This document shows positions 3,348-23,204 of a stretch of 43,108 nt of DNA, piece by piece. The notes under the pieces are model-generated. The model searched no databases and was not told the DNA's origin. It was given only the letters and a program-made list of their open reading frames with translations. This DNA comes from Terribacillus halophilus. Its GTDB lineage: Bacteria > Bacillota > Bacilli > Bacillales > Amphibacillaceae. Location of the stretch: the NCBI RefSeq assembly GCF_900162685.1, contig NZ_LT727828.1:2090145-2133252 (forward strand), in the 5' to 3' direction. The position numbers were made by a program, and so were the translations under genes. Numbering within the stretch: the stretch's first letter is position 1; each line of letters opens with the position of its first letter.

Positions 3348-6101
3348 TTACGCCTGATAATGAGCTTCTACAACGCTCGCACAGCGGGAGCATAAATCCG
3401 GATGCGACGCATCTTCGCCGACCGTTTCAGATGCAACCCAGCAGCGTTCACATCGTTTTGCTGGGTGTTTTTCCACACATACAGCAACATGTTCATAATT
3501 AGCAGCTTCTGGATCAGCATCCACTACATTTGCTTCAGATACGATAAGCAGCTGATGCAAGTTATCGATGCTCTGAAGCAGCTGTTTTGTTGCTTCATCT
3601 TTCGCAGCAATTGTCAACTTGGATTCAAGCGATTTACCGATTACTTTCTCACTGCGCGCGATTTCCAAAGCTTTCAAGACATCATCACGGATTTCCATGA
3701 AATGATCCCATTTTGTCAGCAGGTCATCGTGATCTGCAATAGACAGCTCTTCTGGGAAGTCAGTCAGCTGTACATAGTCAGCTTTCTCGCCGGGGATATA
3801 GCTCCATGCTTCTTCTGCAGTATGCGCAATGATCGGTGACAGCATCTGTACGAGCGCTTTGATGATCTCATAATACGCTGTTTGGATGCTGCGGCGAGCT
3901 GGATGATCAGCAGATTCGATATAAAGAATATCTTTCCCGAAGTCCAAGTAGAACGAGCTTAGCTCTACAGAACAGAAGCTTAAGATAGCCGAATACACAT
4001 CAGCGAATTCGTATTTGTCATAGCTTTCACGCACACGCTTGATCAAATCAGAAAGCTTCACAAGCATATAACGGTCTACATCTTTCATGTCAGCAAATGC
4101 AACACTGTCCTTCGCCGGCTCAAAGTCATGTAAGTTGGCTAACAGGAAGCGGAATGTGTTACGGATTTTGCGGTATCCTTCAGAAGTTTGCTTAATGATT
4201 TCATCCGAGATACGAACATCGGATTGATAATCGACGGAAGCAACCCACAGACGAAGAATATCGGCACCGTACTGCTTCATGATTTTAGACGGTACAACAA
4301 TATTACCTAGTGATTTACTCATCTTCTTCCCTTTACCATCAAGCGCGAAGCCATGGCTTAAAACTGCTTTGTAAGGCGCTTTGCCTGTTACAGCAACAGC
4401 AGTTGTCAAAGAAGAGTTGAACCAGCCGCGGTATTGGTCAGAGCCTTCCAGGTATAAGTCAGCTGGACGCTGTAATTCCGGACGATTTACAAGCACACCT
4501 TGGTGAGAGGAGCCGGAATCAAACCAAACATCCATGATATCTGTTTCTTTTGTGAAGATACCATTCGGGCTATGTTCGGAAGTAAAGCCTTCTGGAAGCA
4601 ATTCTTTCGCTTCTCTTTCAAACCAGATGTTCGATCCGTGCTCTAGGAACAAATCAGACACATGCTGGATTGTTTCTTCTGTGATGATTGGTTCACCATC
4701 TTCTCCGTAAAAGACCGGGATTGGTACACCCCAGGCACGCTGACGAGAAATACACCAGTCTTCGCGGTCACGGAACATATTGTAAAGACGTGTTTCGCCC
4801 CATTTCGGAAACCATTCCACTTCCTTAATTTGTTCGATAATCTGATCGCGGAATGCTTTAATAGAAGCAAACCATTGTGCAGTCGCACGATAGATAACCG
4901 GTTTTTTCGTACGCCAGTCATGCGGATAAGAATGTGTAAAGAATTCTAGCTTTAGTAAAGCACCTTTTTCTTCAAGAAGTTCGGTGATTTCTTTATTTGC
5001 TTTATCATAGAATACACCTTCAAAACCAGGAGCTTCTTTTGTGAAGACACCTTTATCATCCAATGGGCTGATAACAGGCAGCTTGTATTTTTGACTAGCG
5101 AAGAAATCTTCTTCCCCGTGTCCAGGCGCTGTATGTACACAGCCTGTACCGCTGTCTGTTGTCACGTGCTCACCAAGGATGATAAGGGATTCTCTGTCAT
5201 AAAACGGATGCTGTGCTGTAACGTATTCCGCTTCTTTTCCAGTGAAAGTTTTCACTACTTCTGGATTTTCCCATTCAAGTGTTTCTGTTACGCTGCTTAA
5301 CAAGTCTTCTGCTACGACAAATTTTTCGCCGCCAACTTTAGCGACCACATAAGTTACTTCCGGGTGAAGGGAAATCGCTACGTTAGAAGGTAATGTCCAA
5401 GGCGTTGTTGTCCAGATGATGAATTTCTCATCTCCTTCAAACAAGTCTTTGCCATCTTTCACTTGGAAAGCAACATAAATGGATGCAGAACGTTTATCTT
5501 GATATTCGATTTCTGCTTCTGCCAATGCAGATTCAGAAGATGGAGACCAATAAACCGGCTTCATACCCTTGTAGATGAAACCTTTTTCAGCCATTTCACC
5601 GAAAACTTTAATTTGGGCTGCTTCATAATCTTTTGTCAGCGTGATGTATGGATTATCCCAATCACCGCGTACACCAAGCTGTTTGAACTGGCTGCGCTGA
5701 TTATCAATTTGCTGCATCGCATACTCTGCACATAGACGGCGGAATTCTGCAACCGTCATTTTCTTACGGTCAACCTTCTTCTTCGTAAGCGCCTGCTCAA
5801 TCGGCAAGCCGTGTGTATCCCAGCCTGGAACATATGGGGCATGGAAGCCAGACATGGATTTATAACGGACGATAAAGTCCTTCAGTACTTTATTTAGTGC
5901 ATGACCCATGTGTAAATCACCATTTGCATACGGAGGTCCATCATGCAAGACGAAAAGCGGTCGTCCTTCGGTTCTTTCTTGTACTTTTTTGTAGATATTT
6001 TGTTCTTCCCATTCCTGCTGCATTTTTGGTTCTTTGTTTGGCAAGTTGCCGCGCATTGGGAATGCCGTGGACGGCATCAGCAGTGTGTCTTTGTAATCCA
6101 A
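3348..6101 (-). CDS. ileS: Isoleucyl-tRNA synthetase
   Basis: Class I aminoacyl-tRNA synthetase that charges tRNA-Ile and edits misactivated valine. At 917 residues it matches the usual bacterial-type IleRS. The HIGH motif appears as GDLHMGH near residue 64, the editing-domain segment [11 protein letters not shown] near 230, and KMSKS within [10 protein letters not shown] in the C-terminal half. The C-terminus has a zinc finger, CERC followed by CSRC. The start [10 protein letters not shown] fits the Bacillus protein. The gene is monocistronic, with its own sigma-A promoter, a T-box leader that reads tRNA-Ile charging, and a terminator directly downstream. Confidence 0.98.
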
Positions 6102-6144: not shown

Positions 6145-6409
6145 AAAAGAGCCCCTCATCATCCCAAAGGGACGAGAGAGACTCGCGGTACCACCCTTAT
6201 AGACAGAAGTATACTTCTATCCACTCGAATTCGTAACGTGAATGAGACGTCCATTTCTACTGCTTGCGGTTCGAATGGAAACTAACGGGTGATGTTCGGA
6301 AGAAATACCGCACCAGGCTCTCACCTTCCCTGGCTCGCTTCAATCGGCATGGACTTCTTACTGTCCCGATCACAGTCTTTATATCTAAGTCATGTTGTTT
6401 GCTAATAAT
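6145..6409 (-). promoter_or_regulatory. T-box leader (tRNA-Ile, specifier AUC) of ileS
   Basis: On the minus strand the leader shows the stem I elements GACAGTAAGAAG and AGCGAGCCAGGG, then GAACATCACC, in which AUC (6293-6291) is in the specifier position and codes for isoleucine. The invariant T-box sequence GGTGGTACCGCG is at 6195-6184, followed by a terminator stem running to a T-run near 6145. Established mechanism: uncharged tRNA-Ile stabilises the antiterminator and allows ileS transcription. The 5' boundary is inferred from the promoter position. Confidence 0.95.
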
Positions 6410-15994: not shown

Positions 15995-16762
15995 TTACTC
16001 GTCTTTTTCTTTTTTCTTTTTAGCAGGTTCAAAATAAACACCTGCTCCCATGTGCAGTACACCATCCACATCGGGATTCAGTTGCGCAGCGATACTCGGG
16101 TATGCCTCCATATTGTTGGCAAAAGTCCGAATCGTGCCTTGCACTTCCATTCCGTCATTCATAAACAGCTGAATGACGTATTTGCTATCTTCCGATGGCT
16201 TGTAGTGAATCTCTGAAATGAGCTGGGTGATAGACGCTGGAAGCTGATCGAGCTCTTCGGCCATTTCCTCCAAGTACTCATCATCAGAAAAACCATAAAG
16301 TATCGGAGCATCTGACTTTGGCTGAGACCATTCCTTCTCTGAAATGCTTCCATTGGCAAGCAGCGCACGATATCTTCCATCCTGCTGCAGATAACCAACT
16401 CTGCCAAGTTCCGTTACTTGGATTGTAACGGTTGCGGGAAACTCTCGGCTGATTGAAACTTTCTCGACTTCTTCATTTTTCTGTATTTGGTTGATTGCTT
16501 TGTCCTTATCAATTCGCCAAATATTGTCCGAAACAGTAAGACCACTGCTTTGGATAATGACATCATCAGACAGAAACTCGTTGCCTTCCACCTGCAGACG
16601 ATGAATATCGCTTAATGGAGATTGTAAGTACACGATGATGGAAATCAGTACAAAGAAAATAGATAAATAGAATACAAGTCTTCTATTTGCTTTCTTTTTT
16701 CTAGCTTGCTTTAATTTTGGGATACGATCTTCGATGGAAACAATTTTTTTCTTTTCGCTCAT
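15995..16762 (-). CDS. divIB: Cell division protein DivIB (FtsQ)
   Basis: Bitopic membrane protein of the divisome that works with FtsL and DivIC to activate septal synthesis. The 255-residue protein has a basic cytoplasmic N-terminus (about 1-28), one transmembrane helix (LVFYLSIFFVLISIIVYL, about 29-47), a POTRA domain (from IHRLQVEGNEFLSDDVI, about 53-125) and a beta domain. It ends in a Lys/Glu-rich tail. The ATG at 16762 follows AGGAAGAAGAGG. It is now separated from the upstream dcw genes by the sulfur operon and has its own candidate promoter. Confidence 0.94.
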   Translation of the reverse strand: MSEKKKIVSIEDRIPKLKQARKKKANRRLVFYLSIFFVLISIIVYLQSPLSDIHRLQVEGNEFLSDDVIIQSSGLTVSDNIWRIDKDKAINQIQKNEEVEKVSISREFPATVTIQVTELGRVGYLQQDGRYRALLANGSISEKEWSQPKSDAPILYGFSDDEYLEEMAEELDQLPASITQLISEIHYKPSEDSKYVIQLFMNDGMEVQGTIRTFANNMEAYPSIAAQLNPDVDGVLHMGAGVYFEPAKKKKEKDE

Positions 16763-17183
16763 TTCCTCTTCTTCCTATGCTGTACAGTTCAAAACTGCTT
16801 GTATTGTAATTATAAAATTATAACACATTCATATAGCGGAAGTAGTCTCCAAACCATTAAATTGTCAAATATCCGCTAGTAAAAGGGGTTCTTTACCTAA
16901 TTACATAAGAAGCCGCTAATTTCCTTCCTCCAAGACGAAGAAATGATAACTTCCTTGCAGGATTTTCTTTCTCATTCTACCATGACATTCGATTGTATGC
17001 CTTCGGTTCTGGCGGTCACGGGCTGTTTTTTCATTTAGTAATTTTAGCCAAGTGGTTTAGGACGCTTAGTAAAGACAAACTTAGTAAGAGATACAAGCCT
17101 ATCATGATACCGTTCAAACGATACGACAGCAGGATAAATTGCTGCAAAATACAGCCAACTACCCTATTACCCCTTTTCACCAA
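16763..17183. other. Intergenic gap upstream of divIB; candidate divIB promoter
   Basis: About 420 bases without a convincing gene, exactly where murB and murG lie in B. subtilis. On the minus strand an extended -10 TGTTATAAT (TATAAT at 16822-16817) sits 55 bases before divIB and probably drives it. A TTGACA lies too far upstream of it to be its -35. A 50-codon hydrophobic minus-strand reading frame (TTG 17183 to stop 17031) follows an AGAGG, but I see no family. I found no recognisable MurG or MurB fragment in the frames I read. Confidence 0.5.
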
Positions 17184-17214
17184 GAAAGAAACCTCTATTT
17201 AAGTAGAGGTTTCT
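17184..17214 (-). terminator. Intrinsic terminator of the sulfur operon
   Basis: Arms GAAACCTCTA (17213-17204, minus strand) and TAGAGGTTTC (17197-17188) form a perfect 10-bp stem followed by TTTCTTTCTT-like sequence. The stem overlaps the last codons and stop of the acyl-CoA-dehydrogenase-like gene. The T-tract is interrupted, so efficiency may be moderate. Confidence 0.7.
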
Positions 17215-18386
17215 TCCCATAAATTATTTGATATCCCAACAAGTTGTTTTGCAAGAAAATCACGCGCCAAGTTGTTAGATGGTCCCATTACCATACCGGC
17301 TCTGCTATCTCGGTAAAATCGTTCCAACTTCCCAATCTTATAGCCGTAGCCGCCGGTAATGTCCATGGCAATTTGCGCAATCTCATTCACTGTTTCAGAA
17401 GCATGAATCTTAAATGCCAGCAAATCTTGCTGTGTAGAGAGGGCGAGCATTTCTTTGTTCTGAAATTGCAGATCAATGTCGTTACGAAGTTGTTGCAGCC
17501 ACGCAGCCAATCCTTTGTATTGAATGGCTGCCTTGGCAAGCAATCCACGAATAACTTGATAGTCACTTAGGCTTTTATTCACATCTTGGTGGTGATTTCG
17601 CTTCGCATATGCTGTAACCTCTTCTACAATCCCTCCGGCCAATCCTGTCCAGACAGAACCAAGTCCAAGCAAGTAAGCGACACTATGCTCAATAATTGTT
17701 CTGCCGCCTCCTTCACCTCCAAGCAAATCTTCCTCTGGTACTCGTACGCCAGCCAGCTTCAGTGATGCGCTATGATTTCCTCTTACCCCAAGCGCATCCC
17801 AACTACCCCAGGTTATACCAGGATCTGAACCTTCCATAATAAAATAACTCAAGTCATCTGTTGCTTCCGCTTCTGGCGACCCAGTTTGTACGACATAAAA
17901 ATCTGCAAAGCCACTGCTTGTCGTAAAGGATTTTTCTAAATCCAGCTGATAACCTCCTGACGTGCGTTTTGCTCGACTGGCGTTAATCCAGTATCTGCCC
18001 CCAGATATCCGTTCACTTGTTGATGTTGTACCAAATTTCCCTTCTTGTATTGGCAGCAGCCACTTTTGGTGCTGCGCCTCGGTACCGTGCCGATAAATCG
18101 CATCAGCTGCTTCGATGTGCATTGTGTACACAAGGCCAGTGGATGGACAATGCGCGGCAATTTTTTCTGCTACAACAGAGAATTCAGTATAGCCCGCAGC
18201 AAGTCCGCCAAGATGCTCAGGAAGCAGAATGCCGTTCAAGCGTTTTGCTGCAAGTGCCAGCATGTTTGCTTTCGGAAAAATCTTTTCCCGATCAAGCTGG
18301 TCTGCGGAAGGGGCTATAACCTGTTCAATTACAGCATCAACCAAAGTCCGAATTGTCTCTCGTTTTGTATCTTCTTTATATAGCAT
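17199..18386 (-). CDS. Acyl-CoA-dehydrogenase-fold flavoprotein, SfnB/DszC-like sulfur monooxygenase candidate
   Basis: Flavoprotein with the acyl-CoA dehydrogenase fold, probably a flavin-dependent monooxygenase acting on a sulfur compound. I choose ATG 18386 (395 residues, MLYKEDTKRET), one base after the upstream gene's stop; an earlier in-frame start would overlap that gene heavily and lacks support. The N-terminal helical domain (GILLPEHLGGLAAGYTEFS), a central beta domain (FTTSSGFADFYVVQT, ALGVRGNHSASLKL) and the C-terminal helices (ITGGYGY, FYRDSRAGMVMGPSNNLARDF) follow the family layout. Where many dehydrogenases carry the YEG catalytic glutamate, this has MGPSN, which fits monooxygenase relatives such as DszC. 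Last gene of the SAM-riboswitch operon; likely translationally coupled. The substrate is unknown. Confidence 0.8.
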   Translation of the reverse strand: MLYKEDTKRETIRTLVDAVIEQVIAPSADQLDREKIFPKANMLALAAKRLNGILLPEHLGGLAAGYTEFSVVAEKIAAHCPSTGLVYTMHIEAADAIYRHGTEAQHQKWLLPIQEGKFGTTSTSERISGGRYWINASRAKRTSGGYQLDLEKSFTTSSGFADFYVVQTGSPEAEATDDLSYFIMEGSDPGITWGSWDALGVRGNHSASLKLAGVRVPEEDLLGGEGGGRTIIEHSVAYLLGLGSVWTGLAGGIVEEVTAYAKRNHHQDVNKSLSDYQVIRGLLAKAAIQYKGLAAWLQQLRNDIDLQFQNKEMLALSTQQDLLAFKIHASETVNEIAQIAMDITGGYGYKIGKLERFYRDSRAGMVMGPSNNLARDFLAKQLVGISNNLWEETST

Positions 18387-18387
18387 G

Positions 18388-19779
18388 TTACACCGTCTGC
18401 TTTCTTGCCTGCTGTACTGCTTTCCCAGCTTGTCGCGCAGGATGACGATCCGGAAGTTTGCTGTTTCCACTTAAATTTTCACGGAGCGTTTTTCCCTCGT
18501 ATTTCTCTCTAATTCTTCCACGCTTCTGTAAAATCGGGACAACATAATCAGCAAGATCTTTAAATGTTCCTGGTGTAACCGCATAGGCAATATTAAACCC
18601 ATCGACACCTGTTTGTTCCACCCAATCCTCCATCGCGTCTGCAACTTGTTCAGGTGTTCCGGCGACAACAGGACCAATCCCGCCAATACCGACAAATTCA
18701 GCAACTTCACGTACCGTCCATTTTTTGTTAGGATCTATCTTGGTAAACGTCTCTACCGCTGAGTGAATTGCTTCATTCTCTACAAAACGCAATTCTTCCT
18801 CTGGGTCATATTCGGAGAAATCGATACCAGTCCAGCCTCCTAGTAAAACAAGTCCGCCTTCATAGCTTGCATAACTGCGATATTCGTTTAACTTTAGCTG
18901 GGCAGCTTCTTCTGTTTCTGCCACAATTGGTGTAAACAAGCTCATTACTTTAATTTCTTCCGGATTTCGGCCTTGACGCTTCGTCTCCTCCCGCAGCTTT
19001 TCTACATAGCGCTTTGTCACGGTAACCGTCGGTGTACTGATAAACACACATTCGGCGTGCTTAGCAGCAAACGCTCTGCCTTTTGGGGAGGAACCTGCCT
19101 GGAAGAGCACTGGCGTCCGTTGCGGAGAAGGTTCGGACAGATGTGCTCCCGGGACTTGATAATACTTGCCGTTATGATGAATGTCATGGACTTTCTCCGG
19201 ATCAGTGTACACTTTTCGCTCTGTATCGCGCACAACTGCATCGTCTTCCCAGCTGCCTTCCCAAAGCTTATAGCAAACCTCTACGTATTCCTCTGCAATG
19301 TTATAGCGCTCATCATGTTTGATTTGTGTATCTAACCCTAAATTTCTAGCTGCGCTTTCTAAGTAAGAAGTGACAATATTCCAGCCTACCCGGCCATTTG
19401 TTAGATGATCCAATGTGGATACACGACGCGCAAAGCTGTATGGATGCTCATACGTAACGGAAGCTGTAACTCCAAAGCCTAGATGTTTGGTAACTTGCGC
19501 CATCGCCGGTACAACTAGCAGCGGATCATTGACAGGCACTTGAGCTGCCTGGCGTACCGCTCCTTCCCGGGAGCTTTGGTAAACATCATACGTTCCAAGT
19601 ACATCCGCTAAAAATAATGTATCAAACTGTCCTTTTTCTAAAATCTGCGCTAGCTCTGTCCAATAATCCAAATCCTTATAACGATGTGCTTGATCTTCCG
19701 GATGCGTCCATAAACCAGGAGATTGGTGCCCTACACAATTCATGTCAAAAGCATTGAGATAAATTCGTTTCTTTGTCAT
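18388..19779 (-). CDS. FMN-dependent monooxygenase, NtaA/SnaA/DszA/DmoA family
   Basis: Bacterial luciferase-like two-component monooxygenase that uses reduced FMN from a partner reductase. At 463 residues it has the family length. The N-terminus (LNAFDMNCVGHQSPGLWTHP) closely resembles dimethyl-sulfide monooxygenase DmoA and NtaA types. Further family motifs are FDTLFLADVLG, NGRVGWNIVTSYLESAARN, a long insert ending FQAGSSPKGRAFAAKHAE, and VAGTPEQVADAMEDWVEQTGVDGF (split here; near 370-395). GGAGG precedes the ATG at 19779. Given the S-box leader and neighbours, it probably releases sulfite or a reduced sulfur species from an organosulfur compound; DMS is only one possibility. Confidence 0.88.
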   Translation of the reverse strand: MTKKRIYLNAFDMNCVGHQSPGLWTHPEDQAHRYKDLDYWTELAQILEKGQFDTLFLADVLGTYDVYQSSREGAVRQAAQVPVNDPLLVVPAMAQVTKHLGFGVTASVTYEHPYSFARRVSTLDHLTNGRVGWNIVTSYLESAARNLGLDTQIKHDERYNIAEEYVEVCYKLWEGSWEDDAVVRDTERKVYTDPEKVHDIHHNGKYYQVPGAHLSEPSPQRTPVLFQAGSSPKGRAFAAKHAECVFISTPTVTVTKRYVEKLREETKRQGRNPEEIKVMSLFTPIVAETEEAAQLKLNEYRSYASYEGGLVLLGGWTGIDFSEYDPEEELRFVENEAIHSAVETFTKIDPNKKWTVREVAEFVGIGGIGPVVAGTPEQVADAMEDWVEQTGVDGFNIAYAVTPGTFKDLADYVVPILQKRGRIREKYEGKTLRENLSGNSKLPDRHPARQAGKAVQQARKQTV

Positions 19780-19797
19780 TTGTTATTCCTCCTTTGA

Positions 19798-21075
19798 TTA
19801 TCGAACAGCGAGTCCATCGGTCGTCGCATGCAGTTGCGCTTTCGCAGCTGGTTTTAAAAATACTGTTAAACAGAAACTGAGCGCATACATAATGGCAAAT
19901 CCCCACACAACACCGACAATCCCTAGATAATTGTTAAGAACACCAACAAGTACTGGTCCTACAAACTGACTAGCTCCTGCACCTAAATTGAGTACCGAAA
20001 TTGCTGCGCCTCGGTTTGCCGGAGCCAATGTAGGCAAGATAGCCGACAGTGGAACAAAAGCTGCAATTGCTGCACCAAAAAGAATGGCATTCAGTGCAAG
20101 CAGCGGAATATTTGCCCCGAACGCAACTGGTATATAGTAATAAAGCAAGGAACAAATTGCTGCACCAAAGCAACCAAACCAACGAACAACCCGCAGCCAG
20201 CCAATTCGGTCACCGAGCATGCCAAACAAAACCCCCATCACCATATTACTGACAGACTGGATAGCCCAGAGCTGCAACCACTGACTCGTGGTGATATCCA
20301 AAAAACTCGTAAAGAAACCCGGCATCACAACGACAAACCCGTACCACCCAGCAGTATTAATGGCACGCAGCAAACCACCTGCTGCAACGCGCGGACTTTC
20401 CCAAAGAATCGTTATTCCTTTCAACGCTTCCGCCCATTTATTTCCCTTCACCTGGTCTTGAATTTTAATACCTTGCCGGTCTTTATCATCGACAAGAAAC
20501 ACGCCAAGAACGCCTCCGATAATAATCCAGATAAGGGAACTCCACAGCGTTACCATTTCACCAAAAAACGGAAGAAAAATACTAGGATAGTACGAACCGA
20601 GGAACCCGATTCCACCAGCAAACATAAAGAAAAACCATCCCATAGCCGTTGCCAGTTTATGTTTTTCCGTACGGTAAGCAATCCACACGATAAAGGCGAA
20701 CGCAAACAGTGGATATCCGAAACCACGCAATCCGTACATAAGCACCATCATCGAAAAACTTTCTAGATACAGACCGAAGTAGAGAAAGCCTATTTCAAAG
20801 AGCACCCACGTGATGAGACCAAGCAGCATTGTTTTTTTCGGACCGATTACTTCTCCGAGTACGCCGGCAAGCCAAGAAGCTACTGTAAGTACAATGCCAT
20901 AGGCGCTGAACATAATGGCAGATTGATTAGCAGAAAAACCTATGTCGACAACATACTTTGATAGAAAAGCCTGCTCAATCCCATCACCAGTCATAAACAA
21001 TAAAATCGCAAGCAGCCCTCCGATAATTTGAATCGGCATACCAAACAACTTCTTTTCCGCTAACGGTATCTGCAT
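19798..21075 (-). CDS. MFS transporter, RbtT/DalT/CsbX (polyol permease) family
   Basis: Twelve-helix major facilitator permease of 425 residues. The first helix region carries MTGDGIEQAFLSKYVVDIGF, followed by the loop-2 motif GVLGEVIGPKKTMLLGL, and VAGGLLRAINTAGWYGFVVVMPGF-type segments (described in part) occur in the second half; these resemble the CsbX/polyol permease branch. Its ATG at 21075 follows AAAGGAGG. It sits between the FMN reductase and the monooxygenase in the sulfur operon, so I infer that it imports an organosulfur substrate rather than a sugar alcohol. Export of a product cannot be excluded. Confidence 0.85.
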   Translation of the reverse strand: MQIPLAEKKLFGMPIQIIGGLLAILLFMTGDGIEQAFLSKYVVDIGFSANQSAIMFSAYGIVLTVASWLAGVLGEVIGPKKTMLLGLITWVLFEIGFLYFGLYLESFSMMVLMYGLRGFGYPLFAFAFIVWIAYRTEKHKLATAMGWFFFMFAGGIGFLGSYYPSIFLPFFGEMVTLWSSLIWIIIGGVLGVFLVDDKDRQGIKIQDQVKGNKWAEALKGITILWESPRVAAGGLLRAINTAGWYGFVVVMPGFFTSFLDITTSQWLQLWAIQSVSNMVMGVLFGMLGDRIGWLRVVRWFGCFGAAICSLLYYYIPVAFGANIPLLALNAILFGAAIAAFVPLSAILPTLAPANRGAAISVLNLGAGASQFVGPVLVGVLNNYLGIVGVVWGFAIMYALSFCLTVFLKPAAKAQLHATTDGLAVR

Positions 21076-21088
21076 AACTTCTCCTCCT

Positions 21089-21640
21089 TTATTTCACCAA
21101 ACTAACTGTATCGTTACGGCGGATTGCTTCGATAAGGTGATTTGTCTGTGCCTTTAATCTTGCAGCTGTATCTTCCTCCGCAATCGGCTCTGTTGGGTTG
21201 TCTTTTAATATGTGTTGATCACATATATAAACGCCTTGCAGAGACTCACCCTTTAAATTAGCGATAAGTGGTTTTAACGCATAATCTATTGCTAGCAGAT
21301 GCGCCGGACTCCCGCCCGTCATAATCGGAAGTACAGGTTTGTTGGTGAATATGCCTTGAGGCAGCACGTCCAATAACGCCTTCAGCACCCCTGTATAGGA
21401 AGCTTTGTAAACTGGCGATGCGATAATGAGTGCCTTCGCATTCTCAATTGTTTTGCCAGCCACCACGATAGCAGGGCTATCAAATCGCGCATAGACCAAA
21501 TCCTCCGGTTTAAAATCTGTAATGCTGATTACGTCAGCTGTAAAGCCTTGCTGCTTCACCAGCTCTCCTGCATAGGCTGCTGCTAGCAGCGATCTCGACT
21601 TTCGTGATGGACTTCCAGATAAAATAATAATGTCAGACAT
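21089..21640 (-). CDS. NAD(P)H-dependent FMN reductase, SsuE/MsuE-like
   Basis: Flavodoxin-fold reductase (183 residues) that supplies reduced FMN to partner monooxygenases. The N-terminus IIILSGSPSRKSRS carries the phosphate-binding loop of the NADPH-dependent FMN reductase family, and ALIIASPVYKASYTGVLKALLD (near 88-109; quoted in part) is the diagnostic dimer/flavin segment. PVLPIMTGGSPAHLLAID is also typical. GGAGGAG precedes the ATG at 21640. It is the first gene of the operon, directly behind the SAM riboswitch, and is the obvious partner of the NtaA/DmoA-type enzyme downstream. Confidence 0.92.
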   Translation of the reverse strand: MSDIIILSGSPSRKSRSLLAAAYAGELVKQQGFTADVISITDFKPEDLVYARFDSPAIVVAGKTIENAKALIIASPVYKASYTGVLKALLDVLPQGIFTNKPVLPIMTGGSPAHLLAIDYALKPLIANLKGESLQGVYICDQHILKDNPTEPIAEEDTAARLKAQTNHLIEAIRRNDTVSLVK

Positions 21641-21680
21641 GTTTCTTCTCCTCCTTTTTTTCGGTTAAAGTGACGAAACG

Positions 21681-21839
21681 AAAAAAAGCTCTCTTTTCCG
21701 AAGAAAAGAGAGCTTTGAAAAAATCGCCCGCACTCTTATCTTCCAAGAAATTAATCTTGCTGGAATTAGCACCTTTCTGACAGTGTCAGAGGTTGCTGAA
21801 GCTTCTTCGGGCCAGTCCCTCAGCTTCTCTTGATAAGAA
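21681..21839 (-). promoter_or_regulatory. SAM (S-box, SAM-I) riboswitch with terminator
   Basis: The minus strand has the SAM-I hallmarks in order: CTTATCAAGAGAAGCTGAGG, GACTGGCCC, GCTTCAGCAACC, a GACACTGTCA hairpin, AAGGTGCTAATTCC and the closing GATAAGAG. The P1 arms are near 21838 and 21734. The terminator is a strong hairpin (21688-21716) with a T-run at 21687-21681. Established mechanism: SAM binding causes termination, so the operon is on when methionine or sulfur is scarce. Confidence 0.97.
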
Positions 21840-21858
21840 CTATATGAAATTAATTTAC

Positions 21859-21887
21859 ATGATACGTGGGCTGGAAAGGAAAGTCAA
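21859..21887 (-). promoter_or_regulatory. Sigma-A promoter of the sulfur operon
   Basis: The minus strand shows TTGACT (21887-21882), a 17-bp spacer and TATCAT (21864-21859). Transcription would start about 15 bases before the SAM aptamer, exactly as expected for an S-box leader. Confidence 0.8.
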
Positions 21888-22030: not shown

Positions 22031-23134
22031 CTAAAGCTTACTATACCGGCTGACATTCAGTAATATCCCGACAGAACTTAAGGTCAGAGTTAGTGAGGAT
22101 CCGCCGTAACTTAAAAATGGCAATGTAATACCGGTAACAGGAATCAATCCGGTGACGACGCTGATGTTTATCATCGCCTGAATTGCAATCATACCTGTAA
22201 TCCCTAAAGCCAGCAGACTGCTAAATCCATCAGGAGCACGGAGCGCTACCTGAATGCCCCGCCATAAAAACAGCAGGAACAAAAGCATCACACCAGCACC
22301 ACCGATGAAACCAAGTTCTTCGGCCAAGATAGCAAAAATAAAATCCGTCTGGGGTTCAGGCAAATAAAAGAATTTTTGCAAACTGTTCCCTAACCCTAGT
22401 CCCATAAGCCCGCCAGGTCCAATAGCGTACAGCGATTGAATGATTTGGAACCCTTCTCCCAGCGGATCTTCCCAAGGATCCAGGAAAGCGGTTATACGCT
22501 TAATTCGATAAGGAGCTGACAGGATCAAGGCTGCAAAAGCTCCAACTCCGAGTAAACCGAGTCCGACAAAGTGAGAAATCCTAGCCCCGCTGACAAGAAT
22601 CATCACCATACAGGTGAGTACAAGGACCACGCCTGTTCCAAGGTCAGGCTGAAGCATAATCATTCCGAATGCAGTAAAAACGAGCAGCAGTGATGGAAGA
22701 AATCCTTGCTTTAAGGAAGTGATGTACTTCTGTTTGGCTGATAGATAGACGGCTAAGTAGATGATTAAGCCAAGCTTCGTAAATTCGGAAGGCTGGATAC
22801 TGAATGCTCCGATTCCGATCCAGCTTCGGGCTCCGCCTCGCACCATCCCAATGCCTGGTATGAGAACGGCGATAAGCAAAAGGAAACAAATGAGCAGAAG
22901 CACTTTCGCATATCGGCGCCAATTCTCGTAATGCACCCTGGAGATGATCAGCATTGCAGCCAGTCCCACCCCGGCAAACAATAACTGTCGCTTAGCAAAG
23001 AAAAAACTGTCACCGAATTTATAGCCCGCCCAAATTGCTGAAGCACTGTAAACCATAATGATACCGACTGTCAGTAAGCCGCCAATAGAGAAAAGCAACA
23101 GCCAGTCCGTCTTTGGAAGATTACTTTTACGCAA
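22031..23134 (-). CDS. spoVE: Lipid II polymerase SpoVE (SEDS family, spore cortex)
   Basis: Membrane glycosyltransferase of the SEDS (FtsW/RodA/SpoVE) family, which polymerises spore cortex glycan with SpoVD. The sequence matches SpoVE rather than FtsW: MVYSASAIWAGYKFGDSFFF, IQPSEFTKLGLI, the essential FLDPWEDPLGEGFQ loop, LPEPQTDFIFAILAEELGF and LPFLSYGGSS. About ten helices. I favour TTG 23134 (367 residues against 366 in B. subtilis) with GGAAATGGGG upstream; the open frame extends to TTG 23200, but that extra segment is not hydrophobic and is unlike the family. A terminator-like hairpin covers the ribosome binding site. No murG follows. Confidence 0.95.
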   Translation of the reverse strand: MRKSNLPKTDWLLLFSIGGLLTVGIIMVYSASAIWAGYKFGDSFFFAKRQLLFAGVGLAAMLIISRVHYENWRRYAKVLLLICFLLLIAVLIPGIGMVRGGARSWIGIGAFSIQPSEFTKLGLIIYLAVYLSAKQKYITSLKQGFLPSLLLVFTAFGMIMLQPDLGTGVVLVLTCMVMILVSGARISHFVGLGLLGVGAFAALILSAPYRIKRITAFLDPWEDPLGEGFQIIQSLYAIGPGGLMGLGLGNSLQKFFYLPEPQTDFIFAILAEELGFIGGAGVMLLFLLFLWRGIQVALRAPDGFSSLLALGITGMIAIQAMINISVVTGLIPVTGITLPFLSYGGSSLTLTLSSVGILLNVSRYSKL

Positions 23135-23136
23135 AG

Positions 23137-23167
23137 AAAAACCCCATTTCCTTGATTGGAATTGGGG
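23137..23167 (-). promoter_or_regulatory. Terminator-like hairpin over the spoVE ribosome binding site
   Basis: On the minus strand CCCCAATTCC (23167-23158) pairs with GGAAATGGGG (23151-23142) with one mismatch and a 6-base loop, followed at once by TTTTTC and the TTG start. The 3' arm contains the GGAAATGGGG ribosome binding site. It could attenuate transcription, block translation, or both. This is inference from structure. Confidence 0.55.
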
Positions 23168-23204
23168 GTCCGCATGCAGCGAAGCGGCTGAGCAGGACAA
23201 GCCC

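Follow-up and report, generated by a model that had tools for sequence, protein, structure and literature searches.

A SAM riboswitch-controlled operon with a probable role in organosulfur scavenging in Terribacillus halophilus

The stretch of DNA analyzed here, 43,108 nucleotides of Terribacillus halophilus (contig NZ_LT727828.1, positions 2,090,145 to 2,133,252; hereafter the window), is part of a 3.45-Mb genome (G000, contig C13) and contains a leader and four tightly packed minus-strand genes between spoVE (22031-23200) and divIB (15995-16762) in the division and cell wall (dcw) cluster. The genes encode a flavin mononucleotide (FMN) reductase, a major facilitator superfamily (MFS) transporter, an FMN-dependent monooxygenase and a flavoprotein of the acyl-CoA dehydrogenase (ACAD) fold. 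We propose that they very probably form a sulfur-scavenging operon that is switched off by S-adenosylmethionine (SAM) through a SAM-I riboswitch (S-box). The parts and their order, the riboswitch, the terminator, the conservation and the link between related monooxygenases and S-boxes across the order were established computationally, and the proposed function is a prediction from them.

Operon structure and control

A preliminary description of this DNA had placed the operon at 17184..21887, under an S-box with its own promoter. The limits found here agree with those coordinates, and so does the mode of control. The SAM-I aptamer occupies 21733-21839 on the minus strand, where the Rfam model RF00162 matches over its full length (positions 1-108 of 108) with 102.9 bits and an E-value of 4.9e-24, compared with a gathering score of 44.4. 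It is preceded by a sigma-A-type promoter (TTGACT-17-TATCAT, 21859-21887, minus strand), identified by a scan and kept in an alignment of genus leaders. Between the aptamer and the first gene lies an intrinsic terminator with a 14-bp stem and a T-run (21685-21716, minus strand; scan, genus alignment and fold), a genus-conserved expression platform for the SAM-I riboswitch. Since the scan as a whole came out near chance, with 9 promoter-like elements versus 8.5 in shuffled sequences and 8 terminator-like elements versus 5.0, the promoter and the leader terminator rest on their place and their conservation. Across ten aligned genus leaders the -35 box reads TTGACT in nine and TTGACA in one, the -10 box reads TATCAT in nine and is altered in the tenth (genome G131), and the aptamer and terminator are almost invariant. 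The fold of the leader has a z-score of -3.14, and folding with the aptamer constrained returned a structure identical to the unconstrained one.

All four genes are on the minus strand, and the first three passed curated family cut-offs, in agreement with the kinds of protein proposed earlier. The first (21089-21640, 183 aa) encodes an SsuE-type NADPH-dependent FMN reductase (TIGR03567, 190.7 bits, cut-off 164.05), whose closest solved chain is SsuE 4pty. It is followed by an MFS transporter of the RbtT/DalT/CsbX family (19798-21075, 425 aa; TIGR00897, 487.6 bits, cut-off 375) and by a two-component FMN-dependent monooxygenase of the NtaA/DmoA family (18388-19779, 463 aa; TIGR03860, 597.3 bits, cut-off 279.7). 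The fourth gene (17199-18386, 395 aa) encodes the ACAD-fold flavoprotein, recognized by profile, alignment and fold, which lacks the catalytic glutamate. The ATG at 18386 is a better start for this gene than the mechanically assigned GTG at 18470, which falls within the monooxygenase gene. At the end of the operon a terminator-like hairpin (17183-17218, minus strand) has a 15-bp core stem and holds the last stop codon of the operon in its loop; the segment 17172-17230 folds with -21.3 kcal/mol. This hairpin is absent from the list produced by the terminator scan, and no clean T-run follows it.

By the established SAM-I mechanism, the aptamer would fold when SAM, and hence methionine, is plentiful, and the leader terminator would halt transcription; at low SAM, transcription would continue into the four genes. 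The MFS transporter may then import the substrate, and the FMN reductase, as in other members of its family, would supply reduced FMN (FMNH2) to the monooxygenase. Family and context suggest that the monooxygenase would use FMNH2 and O2 to oxidize an organosulfur substrate and cleave it at or beside the C-S bond. The ACAD-fold flavoprotein could catalyze a second oxidation, most likely at or next to the sulfur, and the freed sulfur would enter cysteine and methionine synthesis.

S-boxes at related monooxygenase genes

Evidence for a role in sulfur metabolism, as suggested in the preliminary description, comes from relatives of the monooxygenase. A search of 397 genomes of the order at an E-value of 1e-100 or better gave 97 matches in 70 genomes; here, as in the searches with the MFS transporter and the ACAD-fold protein, up to four first-look candidates were scored per genome and paralogues can be missed. 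The 92 regions examined hold 94 of these matches, while the other three are orthologues in G000, G128 and G129 seen at the genus loci. Each region, with one target gene, was scanned with a purpose-built covariance model (R1), 3 of whose 24 sequences recur among the 92 regions (L174, L185, L251). A same-strand S-box lies within 3.5 kb upstream of the monooxygenase gene in 73 of the 92 regions (67 of 86 outside the genus and 6 of 6 within it), and none of the 92 has a same-strand S-box downstream. Altogether, 97 S-box matches (one of them double, where L190 and L192 overlap) were found in 831 kb, compared with 4.3 expected at the density of the T. halophilus genome.

Counted per match and at any distance within the stretch, an upstream S-box accompanies 27 of 36 relatives with at least 60% identity, 44 of 51 with 45-60% and 5 of 13 below 45%. 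In 20 of the 27 S-box-bearing relatives at or above 60% identity, an FMN reductase gene is located between the S-box and the monooxygenase gene. The Rfam model at its own threshold gave an upstream S-box at six of nine named non-genus Bacillota loci (L030, L031, L033-L036) and none at the other three (L032, L037, L044). On a tree of 108 proteins the S-box label changes 12 times compared with 29.9 in shuffles, a difference to which close kin contribute; L271 and L272 are labeled as having none on this tree despite their upstream S-boxes, and L198 has only 627 nt of upstream sequence.

Neighboring genes were annotated at nine of the regions in which no S-box was detected, and seven of these nine loci are located beside sulfur-type genes. 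SsuD neighbors are present at L203 and L205 (657.7 and 656.8 bits, cut-off 510) and an SfnG neighbor at L193 (595.6 bits, cut-off 382.95). Below the respective cut-offs, SfnB/DszC-like neighbors occur at L173, L193, L197, L203, L205 and L226; a MetQ-like lipoprotein is also encoded at L226, as it is at L253. A check proposed earlier, whether homologous operons are tied to a non-sulfur substrate, thus turned out in favor of sulfur, both at these seven loci and at the 73 regions with an S-box.

S-boxes on the opposite strand were also detected, upstream in 22 of the 92 regions and downstream in one. The 22 regions with such a divergent S-box are L194, L196, L199, L222-L225, L227, L229, L230, L233, L234, L238, L240-L246, L249 and L250, and in the cases checked the second S-box is about 115-290 nt from the first. 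The presence of a second S-box on the opposite strand suggests back-to-back SAM-switch operons. Two single loci may also be recorded: the second, S-box-linked monooxygenase gene of a genus member (L239, G129 C1:822967-824328) contains an in-frame TGA, and a weak S-box-like match (L052 942-1041, 32.1 bits) precedes a monooxygenase relative in the actinobacterium Kineococcus rubinsiae.

The same association is found within the T. halophilus genome, which has at least 18 SAM-I riboswitches. It encodes five NtaA/DmoA-family proteins that exceed the cut-off. Four of them follow an S-box, namely the one in the operon and those encoded at C12:60175 (about 80 nt from the S-box), C13:2534743 (110 nt) and C12:633040 (2.1 kb, after an O-acetylhomoserine sulfhydrylase gene and small open reading frames). 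The fifth, at C13:1826679, has no S-box in its 12-kb stretch. In one array, S-boxes precede the genes for MetX, for O-acetylhomoserine sulfhydrylase and for an SsuA-family protein, each of which exceeds a curated cut-off; at L276, same-strand tandem S-boxes (2664-2775 and 3920-4027) stand before metX and the O-acetylhomoserine sulfhydrylase gene, respectively, and an SsuA-family transporter is encoded further on. Among the other proteins preceded by an S-box are an amidohydrolase of the M20 type, which passes its cut-off, and two that stay below theirs: one SfnG-like (193 bits, cut-off 382.95) and, at L277, one DszC/SfnB-like (341 and 272 bits, cut-offs 850 and 430.9). The operon appears to be one of several SAM-switch sets that seem made for the use of organic sulfur.

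Pairing of a SAM riboswitch with dmoA is already in print, since the riboswitch table of an RNA-seq study of Bacillus methanolicus MGA3 lists (SAM)-dmoA under dimethyl sulfide (DMS) degradation (PMC4342826). Under sulfonate uptake, the same table has ssuA1-ssuC1-ssuB1 behind a (SAM)-(PyrR) leader (PMC4342826). The B. methanolicus case resembles ours in that a SAM riboswitch precedes a gene, there named dmoA, but the table lists a single gene, whereas the gene described here is joined by those for an FMN reductase, an MFS transporter and an ACAD-fold protein and is located inside the dcw cluster. A general statement that SAM-riboswitch genes in Bacillales probably serve cysteine or methionine metabolism or transport is also available (PMC3766115); the word monooxygenase is absent from the main text of that article, and its supplements could list such genes. 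We found no description in the literature of the order-wide extent of the pairing between S-boxes and these monooxygenases, and earlier reports may exist.

The ACAD-fold protein and a possible two-step oxidation

The fourth gene had been described as acyl-CoA-dehydrogenase-like, which holds for the overall fold of its product (P0004) and fails at the usual catalytic glutamate. The glutamate of the YEGT motif, the catalytic residue at the position used by short- and medium-chain acyl-CoA dehydrogenases, is replaced in P0004 by the glycine of MGPSNN (around residues 367-372). Glycine, alanine or serine occupies this position in all 24 distinct aligned relatives, counting duplicates once and dropping rows with fewer than 300 aligned residues (including those of L030 and L277, which are SfnB/DszC-like). 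Judged from the residue at this position, P0004 is probably no ordinary acyl-CoA dehydrogenase. Reading the alignments of P0004 by eye gave no glutamate opposite the presumed isovaleryl-CoA dehydrogenase column. Relatives of P0004 with a motif close to MGPSNN instead of the catalytic YEGT form a branch of the ACAD fold.

In the desulfurization of dibenzothiophene, DszC oxidizes the sulfur and DszA then cleaves the C-S bond. The operon resembles this Dsz 4S system (DszC, DszA, DszD) in that a flavin reductase occurs together with a DszA-type monooxygenase and a flavoprotein of the ACAD fold. It differs in having no desulfinase-like gene, in an ACAD-fold protein that scores under the DszC cut-off and in its riboswitch control. 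A sharper version of our proposal is that P0004 S-oxidizes a thioether, whose C-S bond would next be cut by the DmoA-type enzyme; we consider this version plausible but tentative. The monooxygenase is indeed related to DszA (5tlc, 274.7 bits), the dehydrogenase glutamate is missing from P0004 and its relatives, and the S-box gene at L277 shows that a DszC/SfnB-like protein is found elsewhere among the S-box genes of this genome. Twelve non-genus genomes have a relative of P0004 at E 1e-70, and in six of them (G169, G261, G279, G287, G452 and G469) it is encoded about 3 kb or less from a monooxygenase gene. P0004 itself, however, falls far below the cut-offs for DszC (NF043015, 45 bits versus 850) and SfnB (TIGR04022, 70.7 versus 430.9). 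Nor did a fold search identify it as a monooxygenase-type ACAD: its nearest folds, in the top rows, are dehydrogenases, though the result is compatible with a monooxygenase. In addition, a separate SfnB/DszC-like protein (below cut-offs) is present near the monooxygenase at L030, L032, L173, L193, L197, L203, L205 and L226, and the roles of those proteins may therefore differ from that of P0004.

Relationship of the monooxygenase to DmoA, LadA and SsuD

Among solved chains the monooxygenase scores highest with DmoA (6ak1, 582.9 bits, 56% identity); its score with LadA (3b9n) is 545.4 bits, at 58% identity. It belongs to neither SsuD nor SfnG, scoring 75.6 bits versus a cut-off of 518.2 and 79 versus 382.95, respectively. 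The operon shares an SsuE-type reductase with the Sfn and Ssu operons (SsuE, SsuD, SfnG, SfnB), and relatives of its monooxygenase elsewhere are found beside SsuD and SfnG, but the monooxygenase itself sets it apart from both.

One simple possibility is that the enzyme is a true DMS monooxygenase, converting dimethyl sulfide to methanethiol, which would be used directly for methionine. The top score of DmoA, the suitability of SAM control for a path from methanethiol to methionine and the name dmoA for the S-box gene in the B. methanolicus table (PMC4342826) all favor this possibility. We nevertheless consider it unlikely. DmoA shares the NtaA/DmoA family with the window monooxygenase, yet identity to it is only 56%, with 58% to LadA, and in both trees it forms a long branch separate from the group containing the window enzyme. 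Moreover, a volatile sulfide would presumably need neither an MFS importer nor a second flavoprotein.

Membership of the window enzyme in the LadA group was rejected, since it is located in another supported group in both trees. LadA adjoins a second S-box-linked group of Bacillales monooxygenases, with an SH-aLRT support of 97 in one tree and only 84/39 in the other. In contrast to the window gene, ladA is carried by plasmid pLW1071 of Geobacillus thermodenitrificans (L270 9269-10591) and has no S-box nearby. We also rejected control of LadA itself by an S-box: none was found by Rfam in L270, nor by our own model in L269 and L270.

Points against a sulfur role

Several observations weigh against our proposal. 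The 92 regions are not independent, many of them coming from close kin, and 19 have no detected S-box, some with short upstream sequence such as the 627 nt of L198. Two of the nine annotated S-box-less loci, L177 and L204, have no sulfur context. The structural model of P0004 is closest to true dehydrogenases. At L030 and L173 the monooxygenase gene is found beside sugar-type ATP-binding cassette (ABC) transporter genes (RbsA/XylG- and RbsC/AraH-like, below equivalog cut-offs, with a Peripla_BP_4 binding protein), suggesting that the substrate may be something other than a simple sulfide or sulfonate.

The transporter is a further such point, as its family takes its name from polyol transport and none of its relatives outside the genus (at most 49% identity) has an S-box within 1.5 kb upstream (0 of 26 loci with 1.5-kb flanks; 10 more non-genus MFS matches had no locus). 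For this reason the earlier reading of the four genes as a complete pathway to import and oxidize an organosulfur compound goes further than the evidence. S-boxes before MFS relatives were likewise rejected as a clue to the substrate, the only one seen (L311) being located after the gene. That the MFS transporter is of the polyol type and that sugar-type ABC genes occur at L030 and L173 are weak hints of a hydroxylated substrate.

These observations could also be explained by a sulfur-free substrate such as an alkane or a polyol, with the S-box serving another purpose, for instance reading SAM as a general growth signal. Such an explanation would draw on the naming of LadA as an alkane monooxygenase as well as on the polyol-named family of the transporter, the sugar-type ABC genes and the two loci lacking sulfur context. 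We regard it as quite improbable in view of the S-boxes at 73 of 92 homologous regions and of the seven of nine annotated S-box-less loci beside sulfonate-, sulfone-, SfnB/DszC- or MetQ-like genes, three of which are over cut-off. In addition, hydroxylation of long-chain alkanes was not seen for LadA, an optimized variant or four homologs in the experiments of a 2025 article, which also gives no activity of LadA on dibenzothiophene sulfone (PMC12449030). The former result, a failure to reproduce the alkane activity of LadA, weakens the case for an alkane substrate. The latter concerns one organosulfur compound and speaks against LadA having a broad role in sulfur use.

Conservation and the dcw site

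The location in the dcw cluster, as described previously, was recovered throughout the genus. Upstream, outside the operon, spoVE/ftsW (minus strand) is well supported (TIGR02615, 556.6 bits, cut-off 448.8); downstream, also outside the operon and on the minus strand, divIB/ftsQ has a weak FtsQ match (29.8 bits versus a cut-off of 353), and its assignment rests also on its conserved place before ftsA. The full four-gene set is present between these genes in 9 of 10 genus genomes, and the eight relatives examined show the identical order spoVE, S-box, FMN reductase, MFS transporter, monooxygenase, ACAD-fold protein, divIB. In the tenth genome, G131, only the S-box and FMN reductase gene remain at the site (L160 5882-6627); the MFS transporter and monooxygenase genes are missing there, the site being the only place where they were sought, and no ACAD-fold match at 1e-40 was found anywhere in the genome. 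This reduced site looks like the result of loss. At E 1e-40 or better the ACAD-fold gene is found in 9 of 159 family genomes, all in the genus of T. halophilus, and in none of the 149 from other genera.

None of the four genes occurs in the dcw stretch of 12 other family genomes (11 genera), hand-picked from the 149 outside the genus, and in 11 of the 12 spoVE and divIB are about 1.1 kb or less apart. The same junction in G004 (L169 7370-12436) holds about 5 kb with an IS110 transposase gene (204 bits, cut-off 140) and an ABC/FtsX-type open reading frame, and the junction therefore seems tolerant of insertions. The dcw location of the operon looks like a tolerated insertion point without a functional tie to cell division. 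A functional dcw position, in which cell-wall synthesis would be co-regulated with sulfur supply, is highly improbable: the site is retained in all 10 genus genomes (in G131 with the riboswitch and FMN reductase only), but a promoter, a leader terminator and an end hairpin mark the operon off as a unit, the junction in L169 carries an IS110 transposase and an ABC/FtsX-type gene, and in G009, the only other family genome in which both were compared, the dcw cluster and the monooxygenase gene are on different contigs.

The idea that the operon substitutes for murG-murB between spoVE and divIB is unsupported, with murG located about 328 kb away (G000:C13:2439571-2440620) and spoVE and divIB no more than about 1.1 kb apart in 11 of 12 other family genomes (murB was not searched). 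No near match to the operon was found among 72,556 plasmid records. The combination had earlier been called unusual as a whole. That description stands for the precise set of four genes and for the place where they are found, while SAM switches upstream of DmoA-like genes are common in the order.

Other regulatory leaders were detected in the window on the minus strand: a T-box leader (6165-6382, 115.9 bits) upstream of a 917-aa open reading frame, and two PyrR-binding leaders (1030-1142 and 1712-1818).

Implications for the DmoA/LadA-like group

A SAM riboswitch tells which nutrient an enzyme serves, and the 73 of 92 regions with an S-box are therefore a strong and testable hint for the DmoA/LadA-like group. 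One speculative generalization, which we hold with considerable doubt, is that the Bacillales members of this group, including LadA by descent, are organosulfur C-S monooxygenases under SAM riboswitches, that the ACAD-fold protein with the MGPSNN motif is an undescribed partner, and that together with polyol- or sugar-type importers they free sulfur from hydroxylated organosulfur compounds. The main value of the operon is in what the riboswitch link implies for the DmoA/LadA group, LadA being a relative of the group linked to SAM switches: for these enzymes, whose substrates are mostly unassigned, it points to organosulfur compounds used as sulfur sources.

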